Shown piece by piece: positions 388 to 18,363 of a stretch of 64,000 nt of DNA (within the stretch, counting starts at the first letter, position 1; each line of letters starts with the position of its first letter). A program made the translations under genes and the position numbers. The notes under the pieces are model-generated. The model was not told the origin of the DNA and searched no databases. It saw only the letters and a list, made by a program, of their open reading frames with translations. Origin of the DNA: an uncultured Anaeroplasma sp. (GTDB lineage Bacteria; Bacillota_I; Bacilli_A; Acholeplasmatales; Anaeroplasmataceae). The stretch lies in contig CAMEJG010000003.1 in assembly GCA_945919465.1 (NCBI GenBank), positions 1 through 64,000 of the forward strand, in the 5' to 3' direction.

Positions 388-1089
388 TTATTTTATTATT
401 GCTTCCTTAAAGGTTATTTCATCACATTGTACTTCTTTTTTTATTCCATTATTGTCTAATAATAAATGTCCATCTTTTGTAATACCTAGGGCTTTATATT
501 CCTTATCATGATAAATTATTGTTCTATTAATAACCATACTATATTTAATGTATTCATTAATAATAGTATTATCATCTAAATGGATTAGCTTTTCGTATTC
601 TTCTAATATTGTTGAAATTATAATTTCTTTAGATAATTTTTTTATATCATTTATACCTATAGAATTAAATTCTTTTTTAGAAGTCATATTAATGCCAATA
701 CCAATTATTGATGCTTGAAATTTATCTTCATAAATATCTTCAATTAAGATACCTGAAAGTTTCTTTTCATTAAAATAAATATCATTTGGCCATTTTATTG
801 CAGGAACAAAGCCTAATCTAATAAAAGCAAGCTCCAGTGCTAGTGGAGCTATTATTTGATTAATATAATGCTTTTTAAAAACTATTGAAAAGCAAATATC
901 ATTATCACTTTTCCATACTCTATCAAATCTTCCTCTACCATTTGTTTGATTATCTGCAATTAAGATTGAATGGTCTTGAAATAAGATATGAGTAGCTTTT
1001 AAAAATGTATTAGTTGAATCTATTTCACTTACATGATAACATTTAAAATATTTAGAATAAGGATAATTATCTAAATATATACTAGTCAT
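388..1089 (-). CDS. birA: biotin--[acetyl-CoA-carboxylase] ligase
   Basis: GRGRFDRVW, KWPNDIYFNEKKLSGILIE motifs; last gene of an ACC/FAS cluster. Confidence 0.9.
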   Translation of the reverse strand: MTSIYLDNYPYSKYFKCYHVSEIDSTNTFLKATHILFQDHSILIADNQTNGRGRFDRVWKSDNDICFSIVFKKHYINQIIAPLALELAFIRLGFVPAIKWPNDIYFNEKKLSGILIEDIYEDKFQASIIGIGINMTSKKEFNSIGINDIKKLSKEIIISTILEEYEKLIHLDDNTIINEYIKYSMVINRTIIYHDKEYKALGITKDGHLLLDNNGIKKEVQCDEITFKEAIIK

Positions 1090-1990
1090 TTTTTAGATCC
1101 TTAATTAAGGCTTTATAGCCTTCTATATCAGATACATTATAGACCTTAATATTTCTATCAATTCTCTTAATAAAACCACTTAAGGCTTTTCCTGGTCCAA
1201 TCTCAACGAAGGTATCAACACCCATAGAAAGCATATAACGAATAGAATCCTCAAAATAAACACTATTACAAATTTGACGTTCTAATATTTCATTAAGATT
1301 ACCAGCTTCCTCATGACCTGATACATTATAGACAATCTTAACATTAGGAATATTTGGAATATAATTATCAAGCTTTTCTCTAAGCTTAAGTGATGCTGGT
1401 TTTAATAAAGAACTATGAAAAGCACCAGATACATTTAGTTCAATGATTCTTTTACAGCCAGCTTCATTTAGCTTTTTTATTGCATTATCTACTCCTAAAT
1501 TATCTCCAGTAATAGCTATTTGACCAGGACAATTATAATTAGCAATTTCACAAATACCATCAATATTCTTAATGCATTCTAAAATTGAATCTCTATCCAT
1601 TCCAATTACAGCTGCCATTTTAGTAGTACCAAGAGGTAGTGCATTTTGCATTAATTCACCACGAAAGGTAATAATTGAAATAGCATCCTCAATACTCCAA
1701 GTGTTTGCATATGCTAGTGCTGTATATTCTCCAAGTGAAAGACCACAAGCATATTCTGGAGTAATTCCTTCATTTTTAATTGCTGAGGATATAGCATAGC
1801 CTGTTAATAGCATTGCTTTTTGAGCATATGCTGTTTCATTAATTTTATTATCCTCATCATAAAAGCATAAATCTCTTATTTCTGGGAATTTATCATATAT
1901 TTCTTTTACTAATGGAAGCTCATTATAAAAATCTTGTCCCATTCCTTTAGCTTGACTACCTTGTCCAGCAAAGCAAAATCCAATTTTCAT
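1082..1990 (-). CDS. fabD: malonyl-CoA:ACP transacylase
   Basis: FCFAGQGSQAKGMG, GLSLGEYTAL, SGAFHSSLL, VEIGPGKALSGF. Confidence 0.95.
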   Translation of the reverse strand: MKIGFCFAGQGSQAKGMGQDFYNELPLVKEIYDKFPEIRDLCFYDEDNKINETAYAQKAMLLTGYAISSAIKNEGITPEYACGLSLGEYTALAYANTWSIEDAISIITFRGELMQNALPLGTTKMAAVIGMDRDSILECIKNIDGICEIANYNCPGQIAITGDNLGVDNAIKKLNEAGCKRIIELNVSGAFHSSLLKPASLKLREKLDNYIPNIPNVKIVYNVSGHEEAGNLNEILERQICNSVYFEDSIRYMLSMGVDTFVEIGPGKALSGFIKRIDRNIKVYNVSDIEGYKALIKDLKND

Positions 1991-1999
1991 ATAATTCTC

Positions 2000-2914
2000 C
2001 TATTTTATATTTCTGTATTTATTATATCTATTATCTAATAGTTCATTTAATGGAAGCTTTTGTAATTCAGTTATCTTATTATATAATCTATCCTTTAAAT
2101 CTGTAATAAAGGCATCAGATAAATGACGAATACCTCCAAGTGGTTCTTCAATGATTTCATCAACAATATTTACATCAACTAAGTCTTTACTTGTCATTTT
2201 CATCATTTCAGCTGCATCACTTACCTTAACAGTATCCTTAAATAGAATTGATGCAAAACCTTCAGGTGATAAAACTGAATATACTGCATTTTCAAACATA
2301 AATATATAATCTGAAACTGTAAGTGCTAAAGCACCACCACTTCCACCTTCTGATAATACTATCGCGATAACAGGGGTTTTTAATTTTGAAAATTCTAATA
2401 AATTCATAGCTATAGCACGAGCTTGACCACGCTCCTCTGCTCCCTTACCGGGATAAGCACCAGATGTATCTACTATAGTAATTATTGGTCTTTTAAATTT
2501 TTCTGCCTCATGAGCTAGTCTTAAGGTTTTTCTAAAACCCTCAGGTGAGGTCATTCCAAAGTTTCTTTTAATATTTTCTTGAGTATTACTACCCTTTGCT
2601 TGAGCTATAACTGTAACAGGCATATCCTTTAAAAAGCCTATACCTGCATAAATAGATTGATCTTCTGCATATAATTGATCGCCATGTAGCTCATAAAAAT
2701 CACTAATTAGAGCATCTACTAAAGCCTTACCCTTAACTCTTTTTTCACTTCTTGCAATACAAACTCTATCCCAAGCAGTTAAATTAGAATAGGTTTCCAT
2801 TTTTAAAGCTTCTAATTCCTTTTTTATAATTGGAAATTCCTCTGAATCAGTATCTAATGATACTAGTTTTTCCTTTAGGGCTTGTATTTTCTTTTCATTT
2901 TCATCTAATATCAT
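2000..2914 (-). CDS. accA: acetyl-CoA carboxylase carboxyltransferase subunit alpha
   Basis: AWDRVCIARSEKRVKGKALVDALI, GAYPGKGAEERGQARAIA, SEGGSGGALAL. Confidence 0.95.
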   Translation of the reverse strand: MILDENEKKIQALKEKLVSLDTDSEEFPIIKKELEALKMETYSNLTAWDRVCIARSEKRVKGKALVDALISDFYELHGDQLYAEDQSIYAGIGFLKDMPVTVIAQAKGSNTQENIKRNFGMTSPEGFRKTLRLAHEAEKFKRPIITIVDTSGAYPGKGAEERGQARAIAMNLLEFSKLKTPVIAIVLSEGGSGGALALTVSDYIFMFENAVYSVLSPEGFASILFKDTVKVSDAAEMMKMTSKDLVDVNIVDEIIEEPLGGIRHLSDAFITDLKDRLYNKITELQKLPLNELLDNRYNKYRNIK

Positions 2915-2915
2915 T

Positions 2916-3803
2916 TTATTTATAATTATGAAGTCTCAATAATAATGATAAAGTAGACTTCATATCCTTCCTTTCAACAATATTATCCATAAAGCCCTTA
3001 TCTAATAAAAACTCAGAGGTTTGGAATTCCTTAGGTAATACCTCTCTAATTGTTTTTTCAATAACTCTTTTTCCAGCAAAACCAATTAAGGTTTTAGGCT
3101 CAGCAAGAGTAATATCTGCTAAAGATGCAAATGATGCAGAAACACCACCAGTTGTTGGGTCTGTCAATACTGAAATATAAAGCTCTGATTCTTTAAGCTG
3201 ACCAATTGCCTGGCTAGTTTTTGCCATTTGGAATAAAGAAATTATTCCTTCTTGCATTCTAGCTCCACCAGAACAAGTGAATATAATTACAGGCAAATGC
3301 TCGCTAATAGCCTTTTCGCATAATAGGGTTATTTTTTCTCCACAAACACTACCCATACTTCCCATCATAAAATGACTATCCATAACACCAACTAAGGCAT
3401 TAATTCCATTTATTTTTCCTTTAGCACATAATACAGATTCATCAATTTCAGAATCCTTTTTAGCAGTTTCAAGCTTTTCCTTATATCCAGGGAAGTCTAA
3501 ATGCTTCTCCTCTAAATTTTCAAATAAAAGCTCATAGCCCTCATCTAAAACTAAATTCATTCTTTCTTTTGCATATAATCTATCATTATATCCACAAAAA
3601 GGACAAACCTTTAATGAGGAAATAAATTCCTCTTTAAAAATTCCTCTTCCACAATTACGACATTTAATCATTAAACCATCTGGAATTGTATTTATATTTA
3701 CCGCTGGTTCTTTTTTATTTCTAAGATTTAATTCCTCTAAAAGAGTATTAAACTCATCGATTTCTTCTTTACGCTTATTGAATACGTTTTGCATTATCAC
3801 CAA
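2916..3803 (-). CDS. accD: acetyl-CoA carboxylase carboxyltransferase subunit beta
   Basis: N-terminal Cys4 zinc motif (CRNC...CPFC), FTCSGGARMQEGI, DPTTGGVSASFA. Confidence 0.95.
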   Translation of the reverse strand: MVIMQNVFNKRKEEIDEFNTLLEELNLRNKKEPAVNINTIPDGLMIKCRNCGRGIFKEEFISSLKVCPFCGYNDRLYAKERMNLVLDEGYELLFENLEEKHLDFPGYKEKLETAKKDSEIDESVLCAKGKINGINALVGVMDSHFMMGSMGSVCGEKITLLCEKAISEHLPVIIFTCSGGARMQEGIISLFQMAKTSQAIGQLKESELYISVLTDPTTGGVSASFASLADITLAEPKTLIGFAGKRVIEKTIREVLPKEFQTSEFLLDKGFMDNIVERKDMKSTLSLLLRLHNYK

Positions 3804-5142
3804 GCTCCTTTAAAAATTTATCTATAAAGCCTGTATCATAATATCCTAAAATAAAGATAGGATGATGTAATAAGCCATAATGGAAATCTATTGTAGTCTT
3901 AACACCCTCAATAATCATTTCCTCTAAAGCCGCTCTCATTTTTCTTATACATTCCAATCTATTTGGAGCAAAAGCAATTAGCTTTAAGATCATAGAATCA
4001 TAATATGGTGGTATTTCATATCCAGAAAATACAGCACTATCAATACGAATTCCCTTACCACCAGGTAAATGTAGGAATGATATTTTACCTGGATTTGGTC
4101 TAAAATCATTTCTAATATCTTCAGCATTAATTCTACATTCCATTGCATATCCTAGTAAAGGTACATTTTCTTGCTTATATGATAAAGGTAGACCATAAGA
4201 TATTTTTATCATTTCTTTAACTAAATCGATATTTGTTATCGCTTCAGTAACAGAATGCTCAACCTGAATTCTTGTGTTCATTTCAATAAAATAATAATTT
4301 TCATCCTTATCTACCAAAAATTCAATTGTACCTACATTATCATAATTAACATATTTACAAGCCTTTATAGCATCCTCATAAAGTTTATTCTTTAGATTTC
4401 TTGAAATACTTTGACAAGGAGCTTCCTCAAGCATTTTTTGTTTACGACGCTGCATAGAGCAATTTCTTTCATATAAATGAATAGCATTACCATGAGTATC
4501 ACATAATACTTGGACCTCAATATGTTTTGGATTTAAAATATATTTTTCAATATATAATTCATCATTTGCAAAGAATTTTAATGCTTCTTCTTTTGCTTCA
4601 TTATATAAATTTTGAAAATCCTCATCATCCTCAACAAGACGAATTCCCTTACCTCCACCACCAGCAGAGGCCTTAATTAATACAGGATATCCTATTTCTC
4701 TTGCAATTTTTTGACCTTCTTCAATTCCTACTGCCTTATAAGAACCTGGTACAATAGATACACCAGCTTCCTTCATCATTTGAATTGCTTGACTTTTATT
4801 TCCCATTTTTTCCATCACAGATGGATTAGGACCAATCCATTTCATACCACACTTTATAACCATTGAGGCAAAAATAGGACTCTCTGATAAAAAGCCAAAG
4901 CCAGGATGTATCGCATCACAGCCTGTCAAACAAGCTGCTGATAAAATTCTTTCCATATTCAAATATGAATCTAAAGGGGATGCTCCTCCAATACAAACTG
5001 CTTCTGTTGCAAGCTCTCTATGTAGGGCATTCTCATCAGCCTTAGAATATACCGCAACTGTTTCAATACCCATTTCCTTACAGGCTCTAATGATTCTTAC
5101 TGCAATTTCCCCACGATTTGCAATTAAAATCTTTTTAAACAT
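3775..5142 (-). CDS. accC: acetyl-CoA carboxylase biotin carboxylase subunit
   Basis: MFKKILIANRGEIAVRIIRACKEMGI, KASAGGGGKGIR, EMNTRIQVEHSVTE. Confidence 0.96.
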   Translation of the reverse strand: MFKKILIANRGEIAVRIIRACKEMGIETVAVYSKADENALHRELATEAVCIGGASPLDSYLNMERILSAACLTGCDAIHPGFGFLSESPIFASMVIKCGMKWIGPNPSVMEKMGNKSQAIQMMKEAGVSIVPGSYKAVGIEEGQKIAREIGYPVLIKASAGGGGKGIRLVEDDEDFQNLYNEAKEEALKFFANDELYIEKYILNPKHIEVQVLCDTHGNAIHLYERNCSMQRRKQKMLEEAPCQSISRNLKNKLYEDAIKACKYVNYDNVGTIEFLVDKDENYYFIEMNTRIQVEHSVTEAITNIDLVKEMIKISYGLPLSYKQENVPLLGYAMECRINAEDIRNDFRPNPGKISFLHLPGGKGIRIDSAVFSGYEIPPYYDSMILKLIAFAPNRLECIRKMRAALEEMIIEGVKTTIDFHYGLLHHPIFILGYYDTGFIDKFLKELGDNAKRIQ

Positions 5143-5563
5143 TTTGAGCCTCTATTGCGAAAATATTAGCTCCAAATTCAACCATTTGACCTTCTTTAAC
5201 TAATATCTTCTTAACAATACCATCATAAGGAGCGTTAATTTCATTCATAACCTTCATAGCCTCAATAATACATAATTTTTGACCCTTTTTAACAAGGTCT
5301 CCTTCCTTAACAAAAGGTTCTCCTCCTTGATAAGGAGCTTCATGGAAGGTACCTACTAGTGGGGATGTAATATAAGAATCTGAATCAGTTGATTCTTGAT
5401 TATTACTTATTATAGTATTTGCATTATTTTCAAGAGGTAATATTACTTGAGGAGCATTATTTTTTTCAAGTTTAATCTTTATATTATCAATTTCCAAATC
5501 TATTGTATTAACATTAGATTTTTCAAACATTTGTATAATCTTTTCAACATCACTTAAATTCAT
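5135..5563 (-). CDS. accB: biotin carboxyl carrier protein of acetyl-CoA carboxylase
   Basis: Biotinylation motif EAMKVMNEI with C-terminal lipoyl/biotinyl fold. Confidence 0.93.
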   Translation of the reverse strand: MNLSDVEKIIQMFEKSNVNTIDLEIDNIKIKLEKNNAPQVILPLENNANTIISNNQESTDSDSYITSPLVGTFHEAPYQGGEPFVKEGDLVKKGQKLCIIEAMKVMNEINAPYDGIVKKILVKEGQMVEFGANIFAIEAQNV

Positions 5564-5564
5564 A

Positions 5565-5801
5565 TTACTTTTTCTCCTTTAGTTTAGCTTCTACTAAATC
5601 TACTACATCCTGAACTGTCTTTAAATCTTGAATATCTTCCCATGTCATTTGAATTTCAAATGATGTTTCAAGCTCAAGAATAAGCTCAACAGCATATAAG
5701 CTATCAATACCTAAATCATCCTTTAGCTTAGCGCTTGGCTTGATATTTTGATCATCAACATTAGCACATTCAATTAAAAGTCTTTTTATTTCTTCAAACA
5801 T
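5565..5801 (-). CDS. acpP: acyl carrier protein (start trimmed from the ORF track to MFEEIKRLL)
   Basis: LGIDSLYAVELILELE phosphopantetheine motif; the upstream extension in the track overlaps the end of bioY. Confidence 0.9.
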   Translation of the reverse strand: MFEEIKRLLIECANVDDQNIKPSAKLKDDLGIDSLYAVELILELETSFEIQMTWEDIQDLKTVQDVVDLVEAKLKEKK

Positions 5802-5817
5802 GGTAAAACCCTCATTT

Positions 5818-6381
5818 CTAATAAATTGGTTCAGCTTTAAGGAATATAAGATTACTAACACGTGAATATATAACTACCGCAATTACTACACTTATAGTAT
5901 CCTTTAAAAGGAATGGAAATAATCCTGCCTCTAATATAGAAATAACATTCTTATCCATACCTAAATAATAATTCATAATAATATACATATATATTAATCC
6001 TACAAAATCAATTATTAGTAAGCCTAATAACCCTTGAATCAAACCTAGAATATAGGATAATATTTTATTATTTGATTTTAGGCTTAATCCTGTTACAAAA
6101 ACAGATAATAAAAAGCCTAATATAAATCCGAAGCTTGGCTTAACTATATAATCAAATCCTCCTCCAGAAGAGAATACTGGAATTCCTAATAGTCCCATTA
6201 AAATATAGGCTAAAAATACAATCAAACCCTTTTTAAGCTTAAGTACATACCCAACCATAATAACTGCAAAGGTTTGTAAAGTAATAGGAATAGGACCAAT
6301 ATTTACACTTATTTTTGAACAAACAATCAATAAGGCAAGCATAATTGCCATTTGACATAGTTCATTAATTTTTATTTTCAT
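5818..6381 (-). CDS. bioY: biotin transporter BioY (ECF S component)
   Basis: BioY-like ...NIGPIPITLQTFAVIMVGYVL...GLLGIPVF; hydrophobic multi-TM; in an ACC/birA cluster. Confidence 0.88.
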   Translation of the reverse strand: MKIKINELCQMAIMLALLIVCSKISVNIGPIPITLQTFAVIMVGYVLKLKKGLIVFLAYILMGLLGIPVFSSGGGFDYIVKPSFGFILGFLLSVFVTGLSLKSNNKILSYILGLIQGLLGLLIIDFVGLIYMYIIMNYYLGMDKNVISILEAGLFPFLLKDTISVVIAVVIYSRVSNLIFLKAEPIY

Positions 6382-7105
6382 TTTTTTCTTCTTCCCAATG
6401 CATTGCTAAGAATGTTTTATAAGCTCCTACAGAAAAAGGTGGTTTTTTTAATAAAGACTTAGTTTCTTCTGATAAAAAACCATTATTAGCAAATTCTAAG
6501 CCTGCTTCTTTATATTTATTTAAAAACTTATTTAATTTATTTTCATTATGTAAATCAATTAATGTTTTAATTTGAGGTACATAAATACTGGTATAATTGT
6601 TTTTTCCACAAATACAATCATATTGAGTAGTTAATGAATCATATACAAAATAAGCCTCAGTATAGGCACATGAAGAAATAATAACAAGCTTTTGTCCTTC
6701 CTTAGGTGTTCTAATACCATGAAAAGGACTACCATCACTTGGTACTTCTTGACCACAATAGGTTGACATCATTGGCATCATTCTATCGGTAAATACCTTC
6801 ATAATTCCTGGCATTCCAAAAAAATATAAAGGAAATGATTCAATAACAATATCTGATTCTTCTATTTCTTTTTTTATATTATCAATATCATCATTATGAA
6901 TAACGCATTTACCCTCTGTTTTAGCCCAGCATGATAGACAACCAAGACATGGTGTTATTTTTAAATCAGCAATATTATAATACTTTACCTCATAACCACC
7001 ATCTTCAAGTCCTCTAACAAAAGCATTTGTAACATGTAAAGTAGAACTATTATTTCTTCTTGGACTGCCATTTAATACTATGGCTCTTTTAGAGCTTGAT
7101 GTCAT
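6365..7105 (-). CDS. NAD(P)H-dependent flavin oxidoreductase (flavodoxin-like fold), 246 aa
   Basis: LNGSPRRNNSST flavin-binding loop, PCLGCLSCW, SDIVIESFPLYFFGMPGIMKVFTDR; overlaps bioY and shares one nucleotide with fabZ. Confidence 0.75.
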   Translation of the reverse strand: MTSSSKRAIVLNGSPRRNNSSTLHVTNAFVRGLEDGGYEVKYYNIADLKITPCLGCLSCWAKTEGKCVIHNDDIDNIKKEIEESDIVIESFPLYFFGMPGIMKVFTDRMMPMMSTYCGQEVPSDGSPFHGIRTPKEGQKLVIISSCAYTEAYFVYDSLTTQYDCICGKNNYTSIYVPQIKTLIDLHNENKLNKFLNKYKEAGLEFANNGFLSEETKSLLKKPPFSVGAYKTFLAMHWEEEKNENKN

Positions 7106-7557
7106 TATTCTTCACTTCCATATATTTGAGATTTAAGAATCTGAGTGAATGTCATTTTACCCTTTGCATAAAGAGTACCCTCAACTAAAACACGCGCCTC
7201 AAACTCAGTTAAAGGTCCAATTACCTTTGATTTAGTAACAGTAATATCTAATTGATATCCTGGAATAACAGGCTTAATAAATTTAAATCCATCAACCTTT
7301 AATAATACATATACTTTATCAGTCGTAGTACCATCATCCTCCATTACAAGGCTAGATAATTGAGCACAAGCCTCAATTATTAATACACCTGGCATAATAG
7401 GCGAATCAGGAAAATGTCCCATGAAATATGGTTCATTAATTGAAACACATTTTATACCTCTAGCACTTTCATTTGGAGTTAATTCAATTACACGCTCAAT
7501 CATTTGAAATGGTGGGCGTTGTTTTAATCTTTTATTTATATCATTAATATTCATCAT
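7105..7557 (-). CDS. fabZ: 3-hydroxyacyl-ACP dehydratase
   Basis: PPFQMIERV, NEPYFMGHFPDSPIMPGVLIIEACAQ. Confidence 0.94.
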   Translation of the reverse strand: MMNINDINKRLKQRPPFQMIERVIELTPNESARGIKCVSINEPYFMGHFPDSPIMPGVLIIEACAQLSSLVMEDDGTTTDKVYVLLKVDGFKFIKPVIPGYQLDITVTKSKVIGPLTEFEARVLVEGTLYAKGKMTFTQILKSQIYGSEE

Positions 7558-8285
7558 AATGATAATCCTCCATCAATAGTAATTACTTGACCAGTAATAT
7601 AAGCCATTTCATCACTACATAATGAAGAAACTAAGGCTGCAACCTCACTTGATTTTCCTAGACGATGAAGTGGAATATTCTTTAAATATTCTTCCTTCTT
7701 TTCTTCTGGAATATGGTCAAGCATTTCAGTTTCTATAAATCCTGGAGCTACTGCATTAACTCTAATACCATATGGAGCAAGCTCCTTAGCTAGAGTATGA
7801 GTCATAGAATTAACTGCACCCTTTGTAGCACTATATACTCCTTGGCCTGGAAGTGCAAATTGACCACTAACAGATGACATATTTATAATAACACCTGATT
7901 TTTTCTTAAACATCTTAAGAGCACATTGTTGAGCACAATAAAAATAGCCCTTAACATTTAAATCAAAACAAGCATCAAGATTATCCTTATTAAGCATTAA
8001 TAATAATTCATCTCTAACAATTCCTGCATTATTAACTAATACATCAATTGTACCATAGGCTTTATAAACTTCTTTAACCATTCTTTTAACATCATCTAAA
8101 TTAGAAACATCAGCCTTACATACCATTCCATCGCCACCTAAAGCTTTTATTTCTTCAAGAGTATCTAAAGCCTTTTGGTCTGAATGACTATAATTAATTA
8201 CTACTGTATAGCCATCAGAAGCTAATCTAATAGCACATGCACGTCCAATTCCACGTGAAGCACCTGTAACAATCGCAACCTTCAT
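7554..8285 (-). CDS. fabG: 3-oxoacyl-ACP reductase
   Basis: SDR: TGASRGIG, NNAG, YSATKGAV, C-terminal ITGQVITIDGGLSL. Confidence 0.94.
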   Translation of the reverse strand: MKVAIVTGASRGIGRACAIRLASDGYTVVINYSHSDQKALDTLEEIKALGGDGMVCKADVSNLDDVKRMVKEVYKAYGTIDVLVNNAGIVRDELLLMLNKDNLDACFDLNVKGYFYCAQQCALKMFKKKSGVIINMSSVSGQFALPGQGVYSATKGAVNSMTHTLAKELAPYGIRVNAVAPGFIETEMLDHIPEEKKEEYLKNIPLHRLGKSSEVAALVSSLCSDEMAYITGQVITIDGGLSL

Positions 8286-8294
8286 AATATTCTC

Positions 8295-10688
8295 CTATTC
8301 TTTAGTTAATACTACAGCTGAATATGATCCACCAGAACCATATGCAGTAACTAAAATATTTTTGACATCCTTAGCATAAACAGTTGTATTAGAAATACTA
8401 TCACCATCAACTAAATAAGAACGCTTATCTTCTTTAATATCACCAGATAATAATAATGCAGCATGAGCACATGCTAAAGCAGCTGAATTAGCTCTACCCT
8501 CTCCCATTCTTTCCTTAACAGAAAAAATTGGAATATTCTTTAGCATATCACCAAATACCTCTTTATAAGCATTAAGCTCAAGTGAATCAACTGTCTTTGA
8601 ACCATTTGCAAATCCAGAGATAGCATCAATATCATTAATTGTTAAATTACTATCAGCTAATGCTTCCTTAATTGCACTAACTAAGGCAGCACCTGAACCC
8701 TCAAGAGTTGCAAATTCAACATTATGATGACATAAGCCATAGCCTGAAACATAACAATACTTTTTAGCATTACGATTATTAGCACTTGTTTCTTTCTCAA
8801 CCATAATAGTTGTAGAACCATCTGCTAAAGAGAATCCATAGCCATTAGAATAAGGCTTATTAACAGTATTAGCTACATAACCAAGCTTATGATATAATTC
8901 ATCAATAATTTCAATATTTTCATCACAGCCTGAAGCTAAAATTGCTTCTTCCTTACCAGCCTCAATTAAATTCTTAGCATAAGCTACTGCGTGAAGACCA
9001 GATTGAGCTCCATTTGTAATAGTTACATTATAGCCCTTAACACCAGAACAAATTGATAAATAACCACCAGCAGCATTATAAACTGTATTTGGGAACTTAA
9101 AGGCACTACCAAAAGCATTACCCTTTTCTGCAATAGATTCCTCAAAGACACAGCCCATTCCTAATGCACCCTCAGAAGTACCGACAACAATACCAATCTT
9201 AGTAGCATTTGAATCACTAATTTCATAATTAGAATTCTTTAATGCAGCCATACCAGATACAGCCTCTAATTGAGAGAAATTATCAAGCTTACGATAGAAT
9301 GCCATCTTTAATCCTAATTCGTTATAATCCTCACTAGAAATAGTAGAATGAACTGAGGTAGCATCAATCACTTTATCTTCATTTACTACATTAATATAAT
9401 TTGAAACACCATTACCAAGTGGTGATACAATACCAAAGCCAGTAATACAAGCTCTTTCTTTGTTTTCTGGTAATACTACATTACCCTCATTCTTAGAAAA
9501 AACAATACTAGCATTATTTCCACCAAAGGCAAATGAATTACTCATAACAGTATTTAATTCTTTTTTATGTGCCTCATTAGGTACAAAATCAATCTTTCCA
9601 GCCTTTTCCTTTAATGCCTCTAAATCCTCATCACTATAGCCTAATGTAGCAGGCACAACATTATCAGTTAAAGCCTTAATAGCAAAAACAGCCTCAATAG
9701 CACCAGCAGCACCTAAACAGTGACCAACCATTGCCTTAGTAGATGAAACACTTAAATTATCAGTTTCAGAATCAAAAATTGTATGAAGTGATAAGAATTC
9801 TGCATTATCATTCTTAGCTGTACCAGTACCATGAGCATTAATATAGCCAATTTCCTTAGCCTCAATACCAGATGATTCAATAGCCCAACGAATTGCATTC
9901 ATTTGACCCTCTCCATCTGGACGAGGTGCAGTAATATGGTGAGCATCACTTGATACACCACTACCTAAAATCTCACAATAAATCTTAGCATTTCTCTTCT
10001 TTGCATGTTCATAAGATTCAACAATCACACATCCAGAACCTTCACCTAAGGTAATACCTGTACAATGATTAAATGGTGAACATGGATTTGAATCTAGGGC
10101 ATGTAATGCTAAAAATCCTGAATATGGAACAGAAGCAAATGCATCAGCACCACCTGCAACAACAACATCAGCCTTTCCAGCACGAATCAAATCACAAGCA
10201 TATGCAATACTAATAGTACCTGCAGCACAAGCATTAGCTACATTTGTAACAACACCACCAGCATGACAATCACCTGCAACTGAAGATGCAATTGCAGAAA
10301 TAGGCATTTTTCTTACATCTGTTTCATCTCTATCATTTTTAAAATAATGTTCGATAGATACTACACCACCAACGCAAGAACCAATAATAACACTAACTCT
10401 AGGGTCATTATTAAAATCACCTAAGCCTGCATCAGCTAATGCCTCACGGCTAGCCTTAATACATAGCTTAGATACTCTATCCATATCCTCACTAACTTTT
10501 ACATCACTTAAGTCACTTTCTACTTCTGCAGCAAGTGTAGCATAACAATCCTTTGTATCTACACTAGTAGTGTTTTTAATACCACTAACTGAATTAAGAG
10601 CATTATTCCAACACTCATTAACATTATTTCCAATTGCACTAATCATACCAAGACCAGTAACAACACATCTATTTTTATCTAAAGTCAT
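8295..10688 (-). CDS. fused double beta-ketoacyl-ACP synthase: active KS (FabF-like) domain plus inactive KS / chain-length-factor-like domain
   Basis: Two KS-like halves (about aa 1-405 and 411-797). First half has Cys154 (ANACAAG), His286 (NAHGTGT), His323 (VGHCLGAAG). Second half has TNGAQSG, FANGSKT and MGEGRANSAA at the equivalent places. Confidence 0.9.
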   Translation of the reverse strand: MTLDKNRCVVTGLGMISAIGNNVNECWNNALNSVSGIKNTTSVDTKDCYATLAAEVESDLSDVKVSEDMDRVSKLCIKASREALADAGLGDFNNDPRVSVIIGSCVGGVVSIEHYFKNDRDETDVRKMPISAIASSVAGDCHAGGVVTNVANACAAGTISIAYACDLIRAGKADVVVAGGADAFASVPYSGFLALHALDSNPCSPFNHCTGITLGEGSGCVIVESYEHAKKRNAKIYCEILGSGVSSDAHHITAPRPDGEGQMNAIRWAIESSGIEAKEIGYINAHGTGTAKNDNAEFLSLHTIFDSETDNLSVSSTKAMVGHCLGAAGAIEAVFAIKALTDNVVPATLGYSDEDLEALKEKAGKIDFVPNEAHKKELNTVMSNSFAFGGNNASIVFSKNEGNVVLPENKERACITGFGIVSPLGNGVSNYINVVNEDKVIDATSVHSTISSEDYNELGLKMAFYRKLDNFSQLEAVSGMAALKNSNYEISDSNATKIGIVVGTSEGALGMGCVFEESIAEKGNAFGSAFKFPNTVYNAAGGYLSICSGVKGYNVTITNGAQSGLHAVAYAKNLIEAGKEEAILASGCDENIEIIDELYHKLGYVANTVNKPYSNGYGFSLADGSTTIMVEKETSANNRNAKKYCYVSGYGLCHHNVEFATLEGSGAALVSAIKEALADSNLTINDIDAISGFANGSKTVDSLELNAYKEVFGDMLKNIPIFSVKERMGEGRANSAALACAHAALLLSGDIKEDKRSYLVDGDSISNTTVYAKDVKNILVTAYGSGGSYSAVVLTKE

Positions 10689-10715: not shown

Positions 10716-10739
10716 TAGAGGTTGCACATGCAACCTCTA
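10716..10739 (-). promoter_or_regulatory. intercistronic perfect hairpin between the ACP and KS genes
   Basis: TAGAGGTTGC-ACAT-GCAACCTCTA, 10-bp perfect stem with 4-nt loop and no U-run. Confidence 0.7.
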
Positions 10740-10752
10740 ATCATAATAAAAA

Positions 10753-10995
10753 TTAATTATTTGCAACAATATAGCTTGCTAAAGTATCAATATTTAAGAA
10801 ATTTTCTTTAGCTACACCAGTCATTGAAACACCAAATGTGTCATCAATAAAAGAAATTAATTCAATTGAATCAATAGAATCAAGACCAATTCCTTCACCA
10901 AATAATGGAGTATCGAATTCTAATTCTGCTTCATCAATTCCTAAATCGTTACAAAAGAATTCTTTTAACTTTTCCTTAATTTCTAATTCTGTCAT
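10753..10995 (-). CDS. acyl carrier protein (second in cluster)
   Basis: GIGLDSIDSIELISFIDDTFG phosphopantetheine motif, 80 aa. Confidence 0.92.
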   Translation of the reverse strand: MTELEIKEKLKEFFCNDLGIDEAELEFDTPLFGEGIGLDSIDSIELISFIDDTFGVSMTGVAKENFLNIDTLASYIVANN

Positions 10996-11027: not shown

Positions 11028-11043
11028 ATTGAGCATGCTCAAT
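11028..11043. promoter_or_regulatory. perfect 16-bp palindrome ATTGAGCATGCTCAAT; candidate operator in the divergent ACP/TetR intergenic region
   Basis: Exact dyad symmetry in the shared upstream region of a TetR-type gene and the acyl cluster. Confidence 0.65.
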
Positions 11044-11103
11044 AATTATTTAAGTAATTTCTTCTTTATTTTTACCACAAAAAATTATATAATACTAATA
11101 ACT

Positions 11104-11676
11104 ATGTTATTAGGAAGTGGTAATTTGAATCAAAATATTGATGGACTTAAAAAATCCAATGAAGAAATAAATAAGCTGACAAGAGAATCTATTCAAGAAG
11201 CTCTTATTCTTTTAATGTCTAGTCAGGATTTAAACTCAATTTCAGTAACTGATATTGCTAATAAAGCTGGAGTATCACGCTCTGCCTATTATAAAAATTA
11301 TCAATTTAAAGAAGAAATCATTAGAGATTTTCTTAAAAGAGTCTATGATACCATTATGGCTGATGTCCTACTAGATGAACTAAATGATAATCCTTACAAA
11401 ACCTTCATTTCAATCTTTACCGCTATTAAAGATAATTTAAAGCTTATTGAGCAATTAATTCAAGCCAAGCTAAAATATCCTATTCATTACCTATGGAAAG
11501 GCAAAAACAATAATTATACAAAACTTGAAATATTCACTCTCAACTGCTTTGAAGTAAGCTTCACTCATCTTGTTAAAGAATGGGTTGAAGATAAAACTAC
11601 AGTTTCAATAGAGGATATAGCACTATTGTCGACCAATTTATATCCAGAAATAAAGCTTTTAAGCAAAAAGATTTAA
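11104..11676 (+). CDS. TetR/AcrR-family transcriptional regulator (start moved from TTG at 11029 to ATG at 11104)
   Basis: N-terminal HTH: LTRESIQEALILLMSSQDLNSISVTDIANKAGVSRSAYYKNYQFKEEIIRDFL; divergent from the FAS cluster. Confidence 0.85.
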   Translation: MLLGSGNLNQNIDGLKKSNEEINKLTRESIQEALILLMSSQDLNSISVTDIANKAGVSRSAYYKNYQFKEEIIRDFLKRVYDTIMADVLLDELNDNPYKTFISIFTAIKDNLKLIEQLIQAKLKYPIHYLWKGKNNNYTKLEIFTLNCFEVSFTHLVKEWVEDKTTVSIEDIALLSTNLYPEIKLLSKKI

Positions 11677-13204: not shown

Positions 13205-14200
13205 TTAATCCTCCCTATAGGCTTTATTAATTAAATAGCTATCACAAAGTGCAATTGCAACACAAGCCTCACATACAACCATAGCTCTTAAAATAATAGC
13301 AGCATCGTGTCTACCATTAATAACAAGCTCACTAACCTTTTCTTCTTTAAAATTATAAGTTTCTTGAGATTTTCCTATTGATGGAGTAGGCTTAATAAAC
13401 ACTTTTAATTCAATTGGATTTCCATTAGATATACCACCATTGATACCACCATTGTTATTAGTTTTAGTATGACCCTCATGATCAATTATTACATCATTAA
13501 AGCTACTACCCTTAAGGTTGACTCCATCAAAACCAATTCCAAATTCAACACCCTTTACACCACCAACACTAAATAACAAGTGAGAAATAGTAGATTCTAG
13601 TGAATCAAAATATGGTTCTCCAAGTCCCTTTAAAACATTATCTACTCTAATAGAAATAATGCCACCTAAAGAATCTTTTTCTGAAACTGCATCCATAAGC
13701 ATATTCTTAAATTTAGAAGAATCCTCTTCTCCGTTCAAATTAATAAGCTTAGTATTAAATTTAAAATCCTTTAATATTTTTTTAGCTATTACACCAGCAG
13801 AAACTAAGCCTAAGGTTAATCTTCCAGAAAAATGTCCTCCACCACGATAATCATTAAAACCATTATATTTTAATTTAGCAGTATAATCTGCATGAGAAGG
13901 TCTAGGTTGACTTACTAAATTTGAATAATCCTTACTTTTAGTATTATTGTTCTCAAATCTTAATAAAATAGGAGCTCCTGTAGTAAAACCATTAAAAACT
14001 CCACTTTCAATAATTATCTTATCATCTTCAATTCTTGGTGTAGTACCAATTCCACCTGATTTTCTTCTTAATAAGTCATTAGAAAAATCCTCTTCACATA
14101 AAGGAATACCAGGATTTACTCCATCAATTAAAATACCAACTGATTTTCCATGAGATTCACCAAAAATATTAATTTGAAACAATCTTCCAAAATGATTCAT
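13205..14200 (-). CDS. aroC: chorismate synthase
   Basis: NIFGESHGKSVGILIDGVNPGIPL, RPSHADYTAKLKYN, GGGHFSGRLT. Confidence 0.95.
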   Translation of the reverse strand: MNHFGRLFQINIFGESHGKSVGILIDGVNPGIPLCEEDFSNDLLRRKSGGIGTTPRIEDDKIIIESGVFNGFTTGAPILLRFENNNTKSKDYSNLVSQPRPSHADYTAKLKYNGFNDYRGGGHFSGRLTLGLVSAGVIAKKILKDFKFNTKLINLNGEEDSSKFKNMLMDAVSEKDSLGGIISIRVDNVLKGLGEPYFDSLESTISHLLFSVGGVKGVEFGIGFDGVNLKGSSFNDVIIDHEGHTKTNNNGGINGGISNGNPIELKVFIKPTPSIGKSQETYNFKEEKVSELVINGRHDAAIILRAMVVCEACVAIALCDSYLINKAYRED

Positions 14201-14964
14201 ATTTTTTTCCTCACATATTCTAAAACATCTTCACTATAATTAGATAATTTCTTATCTAACCATATTTCTTCTGCCTTAATAGCCTGTAGAACCAACATAT
14301 ATAATCCATTCATTTCTGAATTTGCATCACTTAAAAGCTTAGTTACACTAGGATTAAAAATAATATCCATTACATATTTACTATTTTTAGCAATATCACA
14401 ATTTACAGGAGATACACCCTCCTTAGGATGCATTCCAACAGGAGTTGTATTAACTAGTAAATAAATATCTCTTTTAGCTAATTCTAAATAAGAAATAATA
14501 TTATTCCCTGTTTTATTTCTAGAAACAAAATAAGTATTAGCTCCTAAATCTAATAATGCTTTATTTATTGCAAGGCTCGCTCCACCTGTACCTAAAATAT
14601 AACAATCCTTATTCTTAACATTAATATTATAGTATAATATTTCATTATAAAATCCATAATAATCAGTATTATATCCTACTATTTTCCCATTGATATTCGC
14701 AACAGTATTTACAGCTCCAATAGCTAAAGCCTCATCAGATATTTCATCTAAATACTTCATTATTTCCTTTTTATAAGGAATAGTAACATTAAATCCATAG
14801 TATTCATTATTTCTTAGGGCATCAATATATTTTTCAAGTTCATATTCTTGACATTCTAAAAGTAAATATTGATAATCTAATTCTAATAATTCATAAATTT
14901 TATTGTGAATTAATGGAGAATAGCTATGACCTAATGGATACCCTAAAAGACCATATTTTCTCAT
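14197..14964 (-). CDS. aroE: shikimate dehydrogenase
   Basis: YGLLGYPLGHSYSPLIHN, GFNVTIPYK, GAVNTV, LGTGGASLAI. Confidence 0.94.
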   Translation of the reverse strand: MRKYGLLGYPLGHSYSPLIHNKIYELLELDYQYLLLECQEYELEKYIDALRNNEYYGFNVTIPYKKEIMKYLDEISDEALAIGAVNTVANINGKIVGYNTDYYGFYNEILYYNINVKNKDCYILGTGGASLAINKALLDLGANTYFVSRNKTGNNIISYLELAKRDIYLLVNTTPVGMHPKEGVSPVNCDIAKNSKYVMDIIFNPSVTKLLSDANSEMNGLYMLVLQAIKAEEIWLDKKLSNYSEDVLEYVRKKI

Positions 14965-15242
14965 TTTATATCTCCTTTAATAATATCCTCCTGATAGCAT
15001 CTAGAAGATGCTAAAACAGCATTAAAAAAGGTTAAATAATATTTTTCTAAATTATTATCATTTAATAATTTAATATTTTTTTCAATAATTAATTCTTCTC
15101 TTTTAGAATCTAAAACAGGTAGATTATTTTCAATTTTGTATGAAGCAACCATTTCAACTGCTTTCATTCTTTCTTTAAAAAGCTCAATCATTTTCTTATC
15201 AATATCATTGATAATTATTCTTGCATCATCAAGCTTACTCAT
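14961..15242 (-). CDS. chorismate mutase (AroQ-type, 93 aa)
   Basis: ARIIINDIDKKMIELFKERMKAVEMVASYKIENNLPVLDSKREELII. Confidence 0.88.
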   Translation of the reverse strand: MSKLDDARIIINDIDKKMIELFKERMKAVEMVASYKIENNLPVLDSKREELIIEKNIKLLNDNNLEKYYLTFFNAVLASSRCYQEDIIKGDIK

Positions 15243-16497
15243 ATCTAATCTTACCTCCTAAAGCTTCAAATACTTCCCAAAAATGTGGAAATGATTTTGA
15301 AACACATTGAGCATTTAAAATTTTAATTTCTCCATCACATTTTAAAGATGCCATAGCTAATGCCATAGCGACTCTATGATCATTATGGGAATCAACTATA
15401 TTTCCCTTTAATCTCTCTACTCCATTAATAATCATACCATCAGGTAATTCTTTAATGTTAGCACCAAGCTTATTTAGCTCTTCTTTCATACAAGTAATTC
15501 TATCACATTCTTTTATTCTTAACCTAGAAGCATTAATAAAATTAGATTCACCTTTAGCTAAGCTTGCTAAAACAGTTAATGCAGGTCCTAAATCTGGTGA
15601 TTGAGAAAAATCAATTGTAGCACCATTAATAGAATTAGCATTACAATTAATATAATTAGTATTAACCTCTACATTTCCACCAAAGGCCTTAATATCCTCT
15701 AAAATCTTTTTATCACCTTGAAAAGAAGATAAATTCATAGCCTTTAAATTTATATGAGCCCCAAGCATATCAGCAACTAAAAAGAATGCAGATTGCGAGA
15801 AATCTCCTTCTATTTCATAATCATTTGGTATATATTTTTGATTACCCTTAATATAAAATTTATGATAATCTTCATTAACTATTTCAATTCCAAATTTAGA
15901 TAAAATATCTAATGTTAAATCAATATAGCCCTTTGATTCTAAATTTGTAGTAATTTCAATAACACTATCACCATCAAGTAAAGGTAGAGCATATAATAAT
16001 CCTGTTATAAATTGAGATGAAATATCACCTCTAATAGGATAATAACCTGGTTTTAATGATCCTTCAACCTCAAGTGGTAAATATTTATCATTTTTATTAT
16101 ATTTTATATTATCTCTATCAAATATTTCTAAAAAAGGATCAAGAGGTCTATTTACTAAATTATTCTTTCCAGTAAATGTAATTTTATCACCACAAACAAG
16201 CGCAATAGGAATCATAAATCTAATAGTAGAACCACTCTCATTTGCATCAATAATATTACATTTTCTAATAACTTTTGAGCCCTTAATATATAATTTATCA
16301 TTATCAATATCAATAGTAGCTCCACAAGCTCTCATACTATCAATAGTAGCTAATATATCCTTAGATAATAAAACATTAGAAATAACACTCTCACCCTCAG
16401 CAAGTGATGCAGCTATAATCGCTCTATGAGATAAACTCTTACTTGGGGGAATTATTACATCACCGTTAAGCTTATTAGGAGTAATAATTACATTCAT
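15235..16497 (-). CDS. aroA: 3-phosphoshikimate 1-carboxyvinyltransferase (EPSP synthase)
   Basis: PPSKSLSHRAIIAASLAEGES, NESGSTIRFM, DISSQFITGLL, DHRVAMALAMA. Confidence 0.95.
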   Translation of the reverse strand: MNVIITPNKLNGDVIIPPSKSLSHRAIIAASLAEGESVISNVLLSKDILATIDSMRACGATIDIDNDKLYIKGSKVIRKCNIIDANESGSTIRFMIPIALVCGDKITFTGKNNLVNRPLDPFLEIFDRDNIKYNKNDKYLPLEVEGSLKPGYYPIRGDISSQFITGLLYALPLLDGDSVIEITTNLESKGYIDLTLDILSKFGIEIVNEDYHKFYIKGNQKYIPNDYEIEGDFSQSAFFLVADMLGAHINLKAMNLSSFQGDKKILEDIKAFGGNVEVNTNYINCNANSINGATIDFSQSPDLGPALTVLASLAKGESNFINASRLRIKECDRITCMKEELNKLGANIKELPDGMIINGVERLKGNIVDSHNDHRVAMALAMASLKCDGEIKILNAQCVSKSFPHFWEVFEALGGKIRYE

Positions 16498-17519
16498 TTT
16501 TTAAGTCTCCTTACTTCTTCTTCAGTTAATTTATATATTATACATTCACCAACATTAGTTAATAATATAAAATTAACTACTCCAGAAATATTCTTTTTAT
16601 CGAATAATACCTCATCTAAAAAATCTAAATAATTATATTCTATAGTAGGTAAATTATATTTTTCTAAAATATTATAAATAATTGAATAGCATTCTTTATT
16701 AGTTATACCCAAATCAATACCCATTTTTATTGCCAAAAGCATACCAATAGCTACTGCTTCTCCATGCTTATAGCCATATTTAAGCTCAATAATATGACCA
16801 AAGGTATGACCAAAATTAAGCTTCATTCTATCTCCTAAATCAAATTCATCAGCCTCTACTACTAATTTTTTAACATTAAGACTTAAAGAAATTATCTCTT
16901 CATCAATATTAGGTTTATTTAATAATAAATTTAATAATTTTTTATTTCCTATCGCACCATGCTTTATTAATTCTCCCATTCCATTATTAAATTCTCTATT
17001 ATCAAGAGTATTTAATACTAAAGGATCAATTAAAACCATCAATGGCTGTTTAAAGGCTCCTAAAATATTTTTTCTATTAAAAAAATCAATACCTGTTTTA
17101 CCTCCAATAGAAGAATCCATTTGACTTAATAAAGTAGTAGGAATTCCTATATATGGTAAGCCTCTATATAGTGTTCCTGCAACAAATCCTGTAATATCTC
17201 CAACAACACCACCACCTAAGGCAATTAATAAATTACCTCTTCTAATATCACGTTTTAATAATTCCTCACATAAAAATGCATAAGTATTTATATTTTTTGA
17301 ATCTTCTCCATGAGGAAATACTACATAATCAACATCATAATTAGCTTTTAAATTATTAATTAAACTAGATAAATATAATTTTGAAACATTATCATCAGTA
17401 ATAATATATATTTTTTTATTTTTATAAACTTTATTAATATAATCTACTGCATTATTTAAAATACCTTTCTCTATATAAATAGAATAGGAATTATTATTAA
17501 GATTAATTTTTAGTTCCAT
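16494..17519 (-). CDS. aroB: 3-dehydroquinate synthase (start trimmed to MELKINLN)
   Basis: GGGVVGDITGFVAGTLYRG, PTTLLSQMDSSIGGKTG, LNFGHTFGHIIE, HGEAVAIGM. Confidence 0.94.
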   Translation of the reverse strand: MELKINLNNNSYSIYIEKGILNNAVDYINKVYKNKKIYIITDDNVSKLYLSSLINNLKANYDVDYVVFPHGEDSKNINTYAFLCEELLKRDIRRGNLLIALGGGVVGDITGFVAGTLYRGLPYIGIPTTLLSQMDSSIGGKTGIDFFNRKNILGAFKQPLMVLIDPLVLNTLDNREFNNGMGELIKHGAIGNKKLLNLLLNKPNIDEEIISLSLNVKKLVVEADEFDLGDRMKLNFGHTFGHIIELKYGYKHGEAVAIGMLLAIKMGIDLGITNKECYSIIYNILEKYNLPTIEYNYLDFLDEVLFDKKNISGVVNFILLTNVGECIIYKLTEEEVRRLKK

Positions 17520-18363
17520 CCTTTTCCATCCCTTTTCTAATTCTTGTAGATTCAATAAAATATTTCTTTAGACTATCCTTATCATTATTAGAAATAGCAT
17601 CTTTTACTAAATTTAATTGATTTTCAAATTCCTCAATATGCTTAATTAAAAAATCTTTATTTTCTAAAAATAATTCACTCCACAAATTTTCATTAATCAT
17701 TGCAATTCTAGTTAAATCACGATAAGAATCACCAATATATTTCTCAGTATTTTCATTAGTATCAGAATTAACTAACGCAACAGCAATAGCGTGAGCTAAC
17801 TGTGAAGTATAGGCAATCATATTATCATGAGAATCCATATTCATTGTAGTTACATTTTTAAATCCTAAATCAATACCAATTTTAGAAATAACCTTTATAC
17901 TTTCTTCTTTTGTATCATCAAGTGGTACTACTAAATAATTAGCTTCTTTAAATACAACTTTTTCAGAATATTCAATTCCTACCTTTTCTCTTCCGGCCAT
18001 TGGATGAGAAGAACAATAATCAGCAGGCAAAGCTAATTTTTTAGCCTTATTTAAAAAGCTTGATTTAACACCACTAATATCAGTAATAATTTGTCCTTCA
18101 TTAAATAAATCTCTATAATTTTCTAAAAAATGTAAAATAGCCTGAGGATATATAGCTAATATTATAACATCCATATTAGGAATAAATACTTCTGGTGAGG
18201 TATCTCCATCAATAATATATTTATGTTCAATAGCATAATCAATCGCTCTATAATTTACATCAACACCATAGACCTCATATTTATCTAATTTTGATAGGTT
18301 GTAGCAATACGCTCCACCCATTAATCCTAATCCAACAACTAAAATCTTCATATTACTATGCAA
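17503..18363 (-). CDS. tyrA: prephenate dehydrogenase
   Basis: ILVVGLGLMGGAYC, DISGVKSSF, SSHPMAGREKVG, TSQLAHAIAVAL; first gene of the aro operon. Confidence 0.9.
   Translation of the reverse strand: MHSNMKILVVGLGLMGGAYCYNLSKLDKYEVYGVDVNYRAIDYAIEHKYIIDGDTSPEVFIPNMDVIILAIYPQAILHFLENYRDLFNEGQIITDISGVKSSFLNKAKKLALPADYCSSHPMAGREKVGIEYSEKVVFKEANYLVVPLDDTKEESIKVISKIGIDLGFKNVTTMNMDSHDNMIAYTSQLAHAIAVALVNSDTNENTEKYIGDSYRDLTRIAMINENLWSELFLENKDFLIKHIEEFENQLNLVKDAISNNDKDSLKKYFIESTRIRKGMEKDGTKN

Follow-up and report, generated by a model that had tools for sequence, protein, structure and literature searches.

Condensing enzymes in which an active ketosynthase (KS) is accompanied by a catalytically dead partner, the chain-length factor (CLF), are already known both as a single-chain KS-CLF, in PfaC, and as separate KS/CLF pairs in clusters that resemble those for fatty acid synthesis (FAS), such as the aryl polyene clusters. 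For type II polyketide synthases (PKS) it is established that priming occurs by transfer of malonyl to the KS cysteine and its subsequent decarboxylation (PMC12664062). Type II PKS, among them the actinorhodin KS/CLF (PDB 1tqy), combine an active KS with a dead partner and prime themselves with malonyl; the actinorhodin enzyme consists of separate subunits and serves a non-reducing aromatic polyketide pathway. In the aryl polyene system, the ApeO-ApeC KS/CLF is accompanied by FAS-like KR and DH functions and two ACPs (PMC8358021); the E. coli cluster was used for comparison. The KS-CLF of PUFA synthases has been proposed to pair inside one chain (PMC13311796), and in PfaC (PDB 6riw) an active KS is followed by a CLF in the same polypeptide.

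Here we report a fused KS-CLF gene in a window of 64,000 nucleotides, the whole stretch of DNA that was analysed, from the genome of an uncultured Anaeroplasma species. The initial annotation of this DNA had described KS/CLF pairs as normally being separate proteins, which omits the PUFA synthases, whose KS-CLF didomain lies in one chain. The fusion has the domain order of PfaC; however, PfaC is part of a megasynthase with DH domains, shares only 17-18% identity with it in the structural alignment, and is not accompanied by such a separate FabG/FabZ operon or by a flavoprotein. The aryl polyene system differs in that ApeC is a separate, half-size protein, whereas the C half of the fusion is full-size, and its cluster lacks ACC, FabD and PlsX and contains other export genes. 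Over its whole length the N half can be aligned with FabF (KAS II), and structural comparison with B. subtilis FabF gives about 40% identity; FabF, however, is homodimeric and has two active sites, and the fusion remains below the cut-off for FabF equivalogs.

Two further systems are close. Chain C of 9s5h/9s5i, the top sequence match in the PDB for the C-half profile, likewise carries Glu (TGE) in place of the second His, and chain B of the same entries is near the N half, but chains B and C are two separate proteins; a search of the open-access literature for a paper describing 9s5h found none. The fusion of Priestia megaterium pBM500 (L131, 13998-16427) is likewise a KS followed by a dead KS, of about 809 aa, beside FabD, FabG, ACP and FabZ. 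It differs in sharing 34% identity and in having Asn, Arg, Ser and Tyr as the motifs of its dead half, and its cluster, which also contains a GcvT-like protein, a PPTase and a thioesterase, looks like a natural-product cluster. Its KS half groups with those of the window-type fusions (98/86), and the CLF halves are joined weakly.

The fused gene and its operon

The fused ORF (8295-10688, minus strand) is open without interruption, and the plus strand in this region is full of stops. Pfam matches the KS N- and C-domains twice each and no domain beyond the KS-CLF, which bears out the earlier claim of a single 797-aa ORF with two KS-like halves. The active-site set of the N half is Cys154, His286, Lys318 and His323; the cysteine and both histidines lie where the initial annotation had placed them, and the lysine is also kept. 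The KS alignment spans the entire length of the C half, in which the matching positions are Ala561-Gln562 (Cys site), Asn695 (first His site) and Glu730-x-Arg732 (second His site), with Lys725 kept; the alignment therefore agrees with the annotation that this half lacks the catalytic residues. The whole fused protein scores 492.6 and the N half alone 364.7 against the NCBIfam FabF equivalog cut-off of 493.75. The features of the locus are as follows.

11029..11676, plus strand: TetR-type regulator, transcribed divergently from the operon; the TTG annotated as its start is uncertain (Pfam TetR_N below cut-off)
10753..10995, minus strand: ACP2, dedicated acyl carrier protein of 80 aa with a GIGLDSIDS motif, directly upstream of the fusion (Pfam PF00550)
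9477..10688, minus strand: N half of the fusion, active ketosynthase, residues 1 to about 404 (Pfam, NCBIfam, conservation, AlphaFold2 model)
8295..9476, minus strand: C half of the fusion, CLF-like pseudo-ketosynthase, residues about 405-797 plus the stop codon (Pfam KS domain, motif loss)
7554..8285, minus strand: FabG, 3-oxoacyl-ACP reductase (NCBIfam)
7105..7557, minus strand: FabZ, 3-hydroxyacyl-ACP dehydratase (NCBIfam)
6365..7105, minus strand: Cys-rich flavoprotein, flavodoxin fold, FMN_red-type (Pfam FMN_red and Flavodoxin_2)
5818-6381, in operon order between the flavoprotein and ACP1: BioY, membrane transporter
5565..5861, minus strand: ACP1, second acyl carrier protein, general FAS type (Pfam; NCBIfam ACP models just below cut-off)
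5135..5563, minus strand: AccB, biotin carboxyl carrier protein (from sequence only; biotinyl-domain EAMKVM motif at the end)
3775..5142, minus strand: AccC, biotin carboxylase (translation; same gene order in other Anaeroplasma loci)
2000..3803, minus strand: AccD and AccA, carboxyltransferase subunits, two ORFs at 2916-3803 and 2000-2914 (translation)
1082..1990, minus strand: FabD, malonyl-CoA:ACP transacylase (NCBIfam TIGR00128, score 256.3 bits, cut-off 260.9)
388..1089, minus strand: BirA, biotin--protein ligase, last gene of the cluster (translation; position conserved in Anaeroplasma loci)

The order of transcription is ACP2, KS-CLF, FabG, FabZ, flavoprotein, BioY, ACP1, AccB, AccC, AccD, AccA, FabD and biotin ligase. 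The ACP2 gene and the fusion gene are each preceded by a ribosome-binding-like AGGAG, and a hairpin, AGAGGTTGCA-ca-TGCAACCTCT, lies between them (10717-10738). Between the TetR-type gene and ACP2 there is a 16-bp perfect palindrome, ATTGAGCATGCTCAAT (11028-11043), which is possibly an operator; 16 other loci that were checked did not show it upstream of ACP2. TetR genes also adjoin some other fusion loci. The cysteines of the C-x2-C-x2-C-x7-C motif of the flavoprotein are conserved over 71 aligned sequences, and its PDB matches are weak and of the quinone-reductase type. By this motif it presumably resembles iron-sulfur flavoproteins, and we regard it as a candidate enoyl reductase or electron donor for the pathway.

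Elsewhere in the window, a shikimate-pathway run (13205-18363, minus strand) encodes AroC, AroE, chorismate mutase, AroA, AroB and a TyrA-like protein, these identities being taken from the translations; the organism is related to the wall-less Anaeroplasma. A PyrR-binding RNA element (Rfam RF00515; 48175-48282, minus strand) precedes a run of genes on that strand.

Conservation, ancestry and predicted structure

A search with the C-half profile, limited to one genome per species, gave 259 relatives; 80 loci were kept for neighbourhood counts, and residue conservation was counted over 77 full-length relatives. The fused architecture, sought across genomes, recurs in dozens of independent assemblies, distributed over Anaeroplasma, Lachnospiraceae, Ruminococcus, other Clostridia and Treponema. 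Two isolates are among the carriers: Anaeroplasma bactoclasticum ATCC 27112, and Lachnospira eligens ATCC 27750, which has the gene on a complete 627-kb plasmid. No relatives were found in a scan of viral contigs. The initial annotation had named an assembly or frame artefact as grounds for refutation; this is rejected, as the ORF is free of internal stops in the 77 relatives and L. eligens has it on a complete replicon.

The partners most often found over the 80 loci were FabG (77), FabZ (76), ACP2 (72, lying upstream of the fusion) and the flavoprotein (69), followed by FabD (41), a PlsC-like acyltransferase (36) and PlsX (16, the L. eligens locus included), with the reservation that contigs truncated at their edges lower these counts and that the PlsC-like acyltransferase is named from sequence alone. 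A homologous AccD/AccA pair adjoins the fusion in many loci.

The Cys/His/Lys/His set of the N half is kept in 77/77 relatives, one masked base stretch aside. All 77 C halves have Glu in place of the second His and Arg two residues further on (GExR motif); their first His site is never His (Asn, Cys, Asp or Gly), and their Cys site is variable (A, S, P, N, V, M, T or F), being Cys once. The Gln beside this last site is kept in 66 of the 77 but not in those of Treponema, which read SGP[VL]SG. The C half evolves faster than the N half (mean column identity 67% vs 83%), and long blocks of it, for example FPNTVYNAAGGYLSI, are conserved together with the GExR motif across two phyla. Since catalysis has been lost while these blocks have stayed, the C half fits a structural partner and not decay.

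In the phylogenetic tree the KS halves form one clade and the C halves another, with support of 100/100 each, a pattern consistent with one fusion event that preceded the spread of the gene. The KS halves cluster with KS-alpha-type proteins (9s5h_B, the fused KS of P. megaterium and ApeO; 98/94) and are separate from the FabFs that sister species have. It should be noted that several comparison rows are long-branched; dropping the ApeC, ApeO, ApeR, A. kunkeei and Streptomyces rows from a second tree left the main groups unchanged. In AU tests on a smaller tree, grouping of the KS halves with FabF was not rejected (p 0.24), and the hypothesis that the two halves arose when a single gene duplicated inside the fusion was rejected (p 0.003). 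Based on these trees, the N half is likely, though not proven, to be of KS-alpha ancestry.

The AlphaFold2 model of the fusion, built on an alignment of 43 relatives, has a mean pLDDT of 90.1 and a pTM of 0.94. The top match in a Foldseek search against the PDB is the KS-CLF didomain of PfaC (6riw; E 9.4e-53, 922 alignment columns), with both halves aligned; FabF matches rank below it and cover one half only, and a shallower model gives the same ranking. By prediction, the two halves would therefore pair as a pseudo-dimer within the chain, as in the PfaC KS-CLF. Sequence, tree and structure all support the reading of the protein as a KS joined to a CLF-like pseudo-KS, as had been suggested at the outset.

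Condensing enzymes of fusion-bearing genomes and rival explanations

The genome to which the window belongs (2.1 Mb, 97.7% complete) was searched by protein family, and the absences given here rest on these searches. The fusion is the only ketosynthase of the KAS I/II type that was found in it. FabH (PF08541) had no match, FabK one spurious match only (E 4e-4) and FabV none; FabI was sought via the SDR family only, whose matches are FabG, gluconate 5-dehydrogenase and others, FabI being the best fit for none. MadB was not found in the genomes of 40 relatives. PlsX is present with FakA beside it, and given this arrangement exogenous fatty acids may be used.

A replacement pattern is visible in related genomes. 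Within the Anaeroplasmataceae, FabH is present in 0/18 fusion-only genomes vs 7/8 genomes with a standalone FabF (Fisher p 1.2e-5). Over a wider set of 50 fusion genomes, 12 of the 16 without another KS have neither FabH nor FabK, and 26 of the 34 with further KS genes have FabH, FabK or both (p 0.0014); the genomes compared are related and mostly MAGs, so that these p values overstate independence and absence is not proof. In another genome of the same genus (G016), the place of the fusion operon is occupied by a canonical run of AccBCDA, FabH, FabK, FabD, FabG, FabF, FabZ and biotin ligase. At least eight fusion-only Anaeroplasma genomes keep FabK away from the operon, including that of A. 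bactoclasticum, which has neither a standalone KS nor FabH. Several genomes have the fusion plus the canonical set of FabH, FabF and FabK, and the fusion therefore cannot be the sole system there; a canonical set is likewise retained in many Lachnospiraceae. The fusion-bearing Treponema MAGs (e.g., L049 and L063) have several further KS genes and no FabH or FabK match.

On balance we think it probable that the fusion is a self-priming KS-CLF descended from type II PKS that stands in for FabF and FabH in a pathway of the fatty-acid type. The N half would be the catalytic KS and the C half a catalytically dead KS fold pairing with it in the chain, and this condensing enzyme would work with ACP2 (perhaps also ACP1), FabD, FabG, FabZ and the Cys-rich flavoprotein. 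As no FabH, FabF or MadB was found, we infer self-priming, in which malonyl would be loaded on Cys154 and decarboxylated to acetyl, the same site then performing the later condensations; in type II PKS, as in actinorhodin synthesis, a KS/CLF starts chains by malonyl decarboxylation, and a KS-CLF hence needs no FabH. The acyl tunnel is probably closed off and made longer by the C half, which may shape it such that chain length is limited; that a dead C half sets chain length is a fair extrapolation from KS/CLF enzymes. The product would pass via PlsX into membrane lipid. Enoyl reduction could be carried out by FabK in some genomes, and possibly by the flavoprotein where a known enoyl reductase is missing.

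This last step matters, since with no known enoyl reductase in the window's own genome the synthesis of saturated fatty acids would require an unproven reductase, and if enoyl reduction were absent the product would be a polyene. This leads to the chief rival, which we consider possible but rather doubtful, namely that a polyene or unusual lipid is made by a specialised type II polyketide pathway of the reducing kind, similar to the aryl polyene pathway, with the fusion as its KS-CLF, and that FabH, FabF and FabK are dispensable because gut fatty acids are taken up and activated by FakA. The missing enoyl reductase, the presence of FakA, the dedicated ACP and the canonical set kept in many Lachnospiraceae agree with such a pathway, as does the clustering of the KS half with KS-alpha proteins and not with local FabFs. 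The KS-alpha relatives ApeO and the 9s5h_C partner come from polyene or polyketide systems or are similar to such; however, the preference for KS-alpha over FabF is not decisive in the AU test. It is also countered by the position of the Anaeroplasma fusion, which sits with a complete ACC set, FabD and biotin ligase where sister genomes have the canonical FabH/FabK/FabF cluster, by the FabK retained at another locus in the fusion-only Anaeroplasma genomes mentioned above, and by the adjacency of PlsX in 16 loci.

A second rival, which appears improbable, is that the C half is a KSQ-like malonyl-ACP decarboxylase that makes the acetyl-ACP starter, the N half being responsible for elongation. 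A primer source is needed when neither FabH nor MadB is found, and the Cys site of the window protein reads Ala followed by Gln. However, KSQ-type decarboxylation depends on two active-site histidines, both of which are lost in all 77 relatives, and the Gln, which the Treponema proteins lack, does not align with the Cys. Finally, it is very improbable that the C half is drifting and only stabilises the N half, the protein being merely a FabF, as the faster evolution of the C half is countered by the blocks and GExR motif kept across two phyla, the score below the FabF equivalog cut-off and the rejected internal duplication.

Returning to the self-priming KS-CLF, a more far-reaching version of this reading can be put forward tentatively: a fatty acid synthase without FabH, FabF or a known enoyl reductase, in which the fused, self-priming KS-CLF works with its own ACP, FabG and FabZ and the iron-sulfur flavoprotein represents a new class of enoyl reductase, may be the sole de novo system in some gut and rumen anaerobes.

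Possible significance for fatty acid synthesis in gut anaerobes

In the open-access literature we found no description of a FabH-less, FAS-type operon whose apparent sole condensing enzyme is a free-standing KS-CLF fusion, and nothing relevant on KS-CLF/FAS fusions in gut Firmicutes or on the lipids of Anaeroplasma; the novelty is provisional, being judged on this open-access literature. If the favoured explanation is true, primary fatty acid synthesis has passed to a KS-CLF of the polyketide type, in which the initiating and elongating ketosynthases are merged in one chain with one active site, and the fusion would offer a simple one-gene KS-CLF for studies of chain-length control. The isolate A. 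bactoclasticum, which lacks a standalone KS and FabH, makes the question directly testable. If verified, this would change the predicted sensitivity to drugs directed against FabH and FabK, and would explain membrane lipid synthesis in many gut anaerobes that lack FabH.
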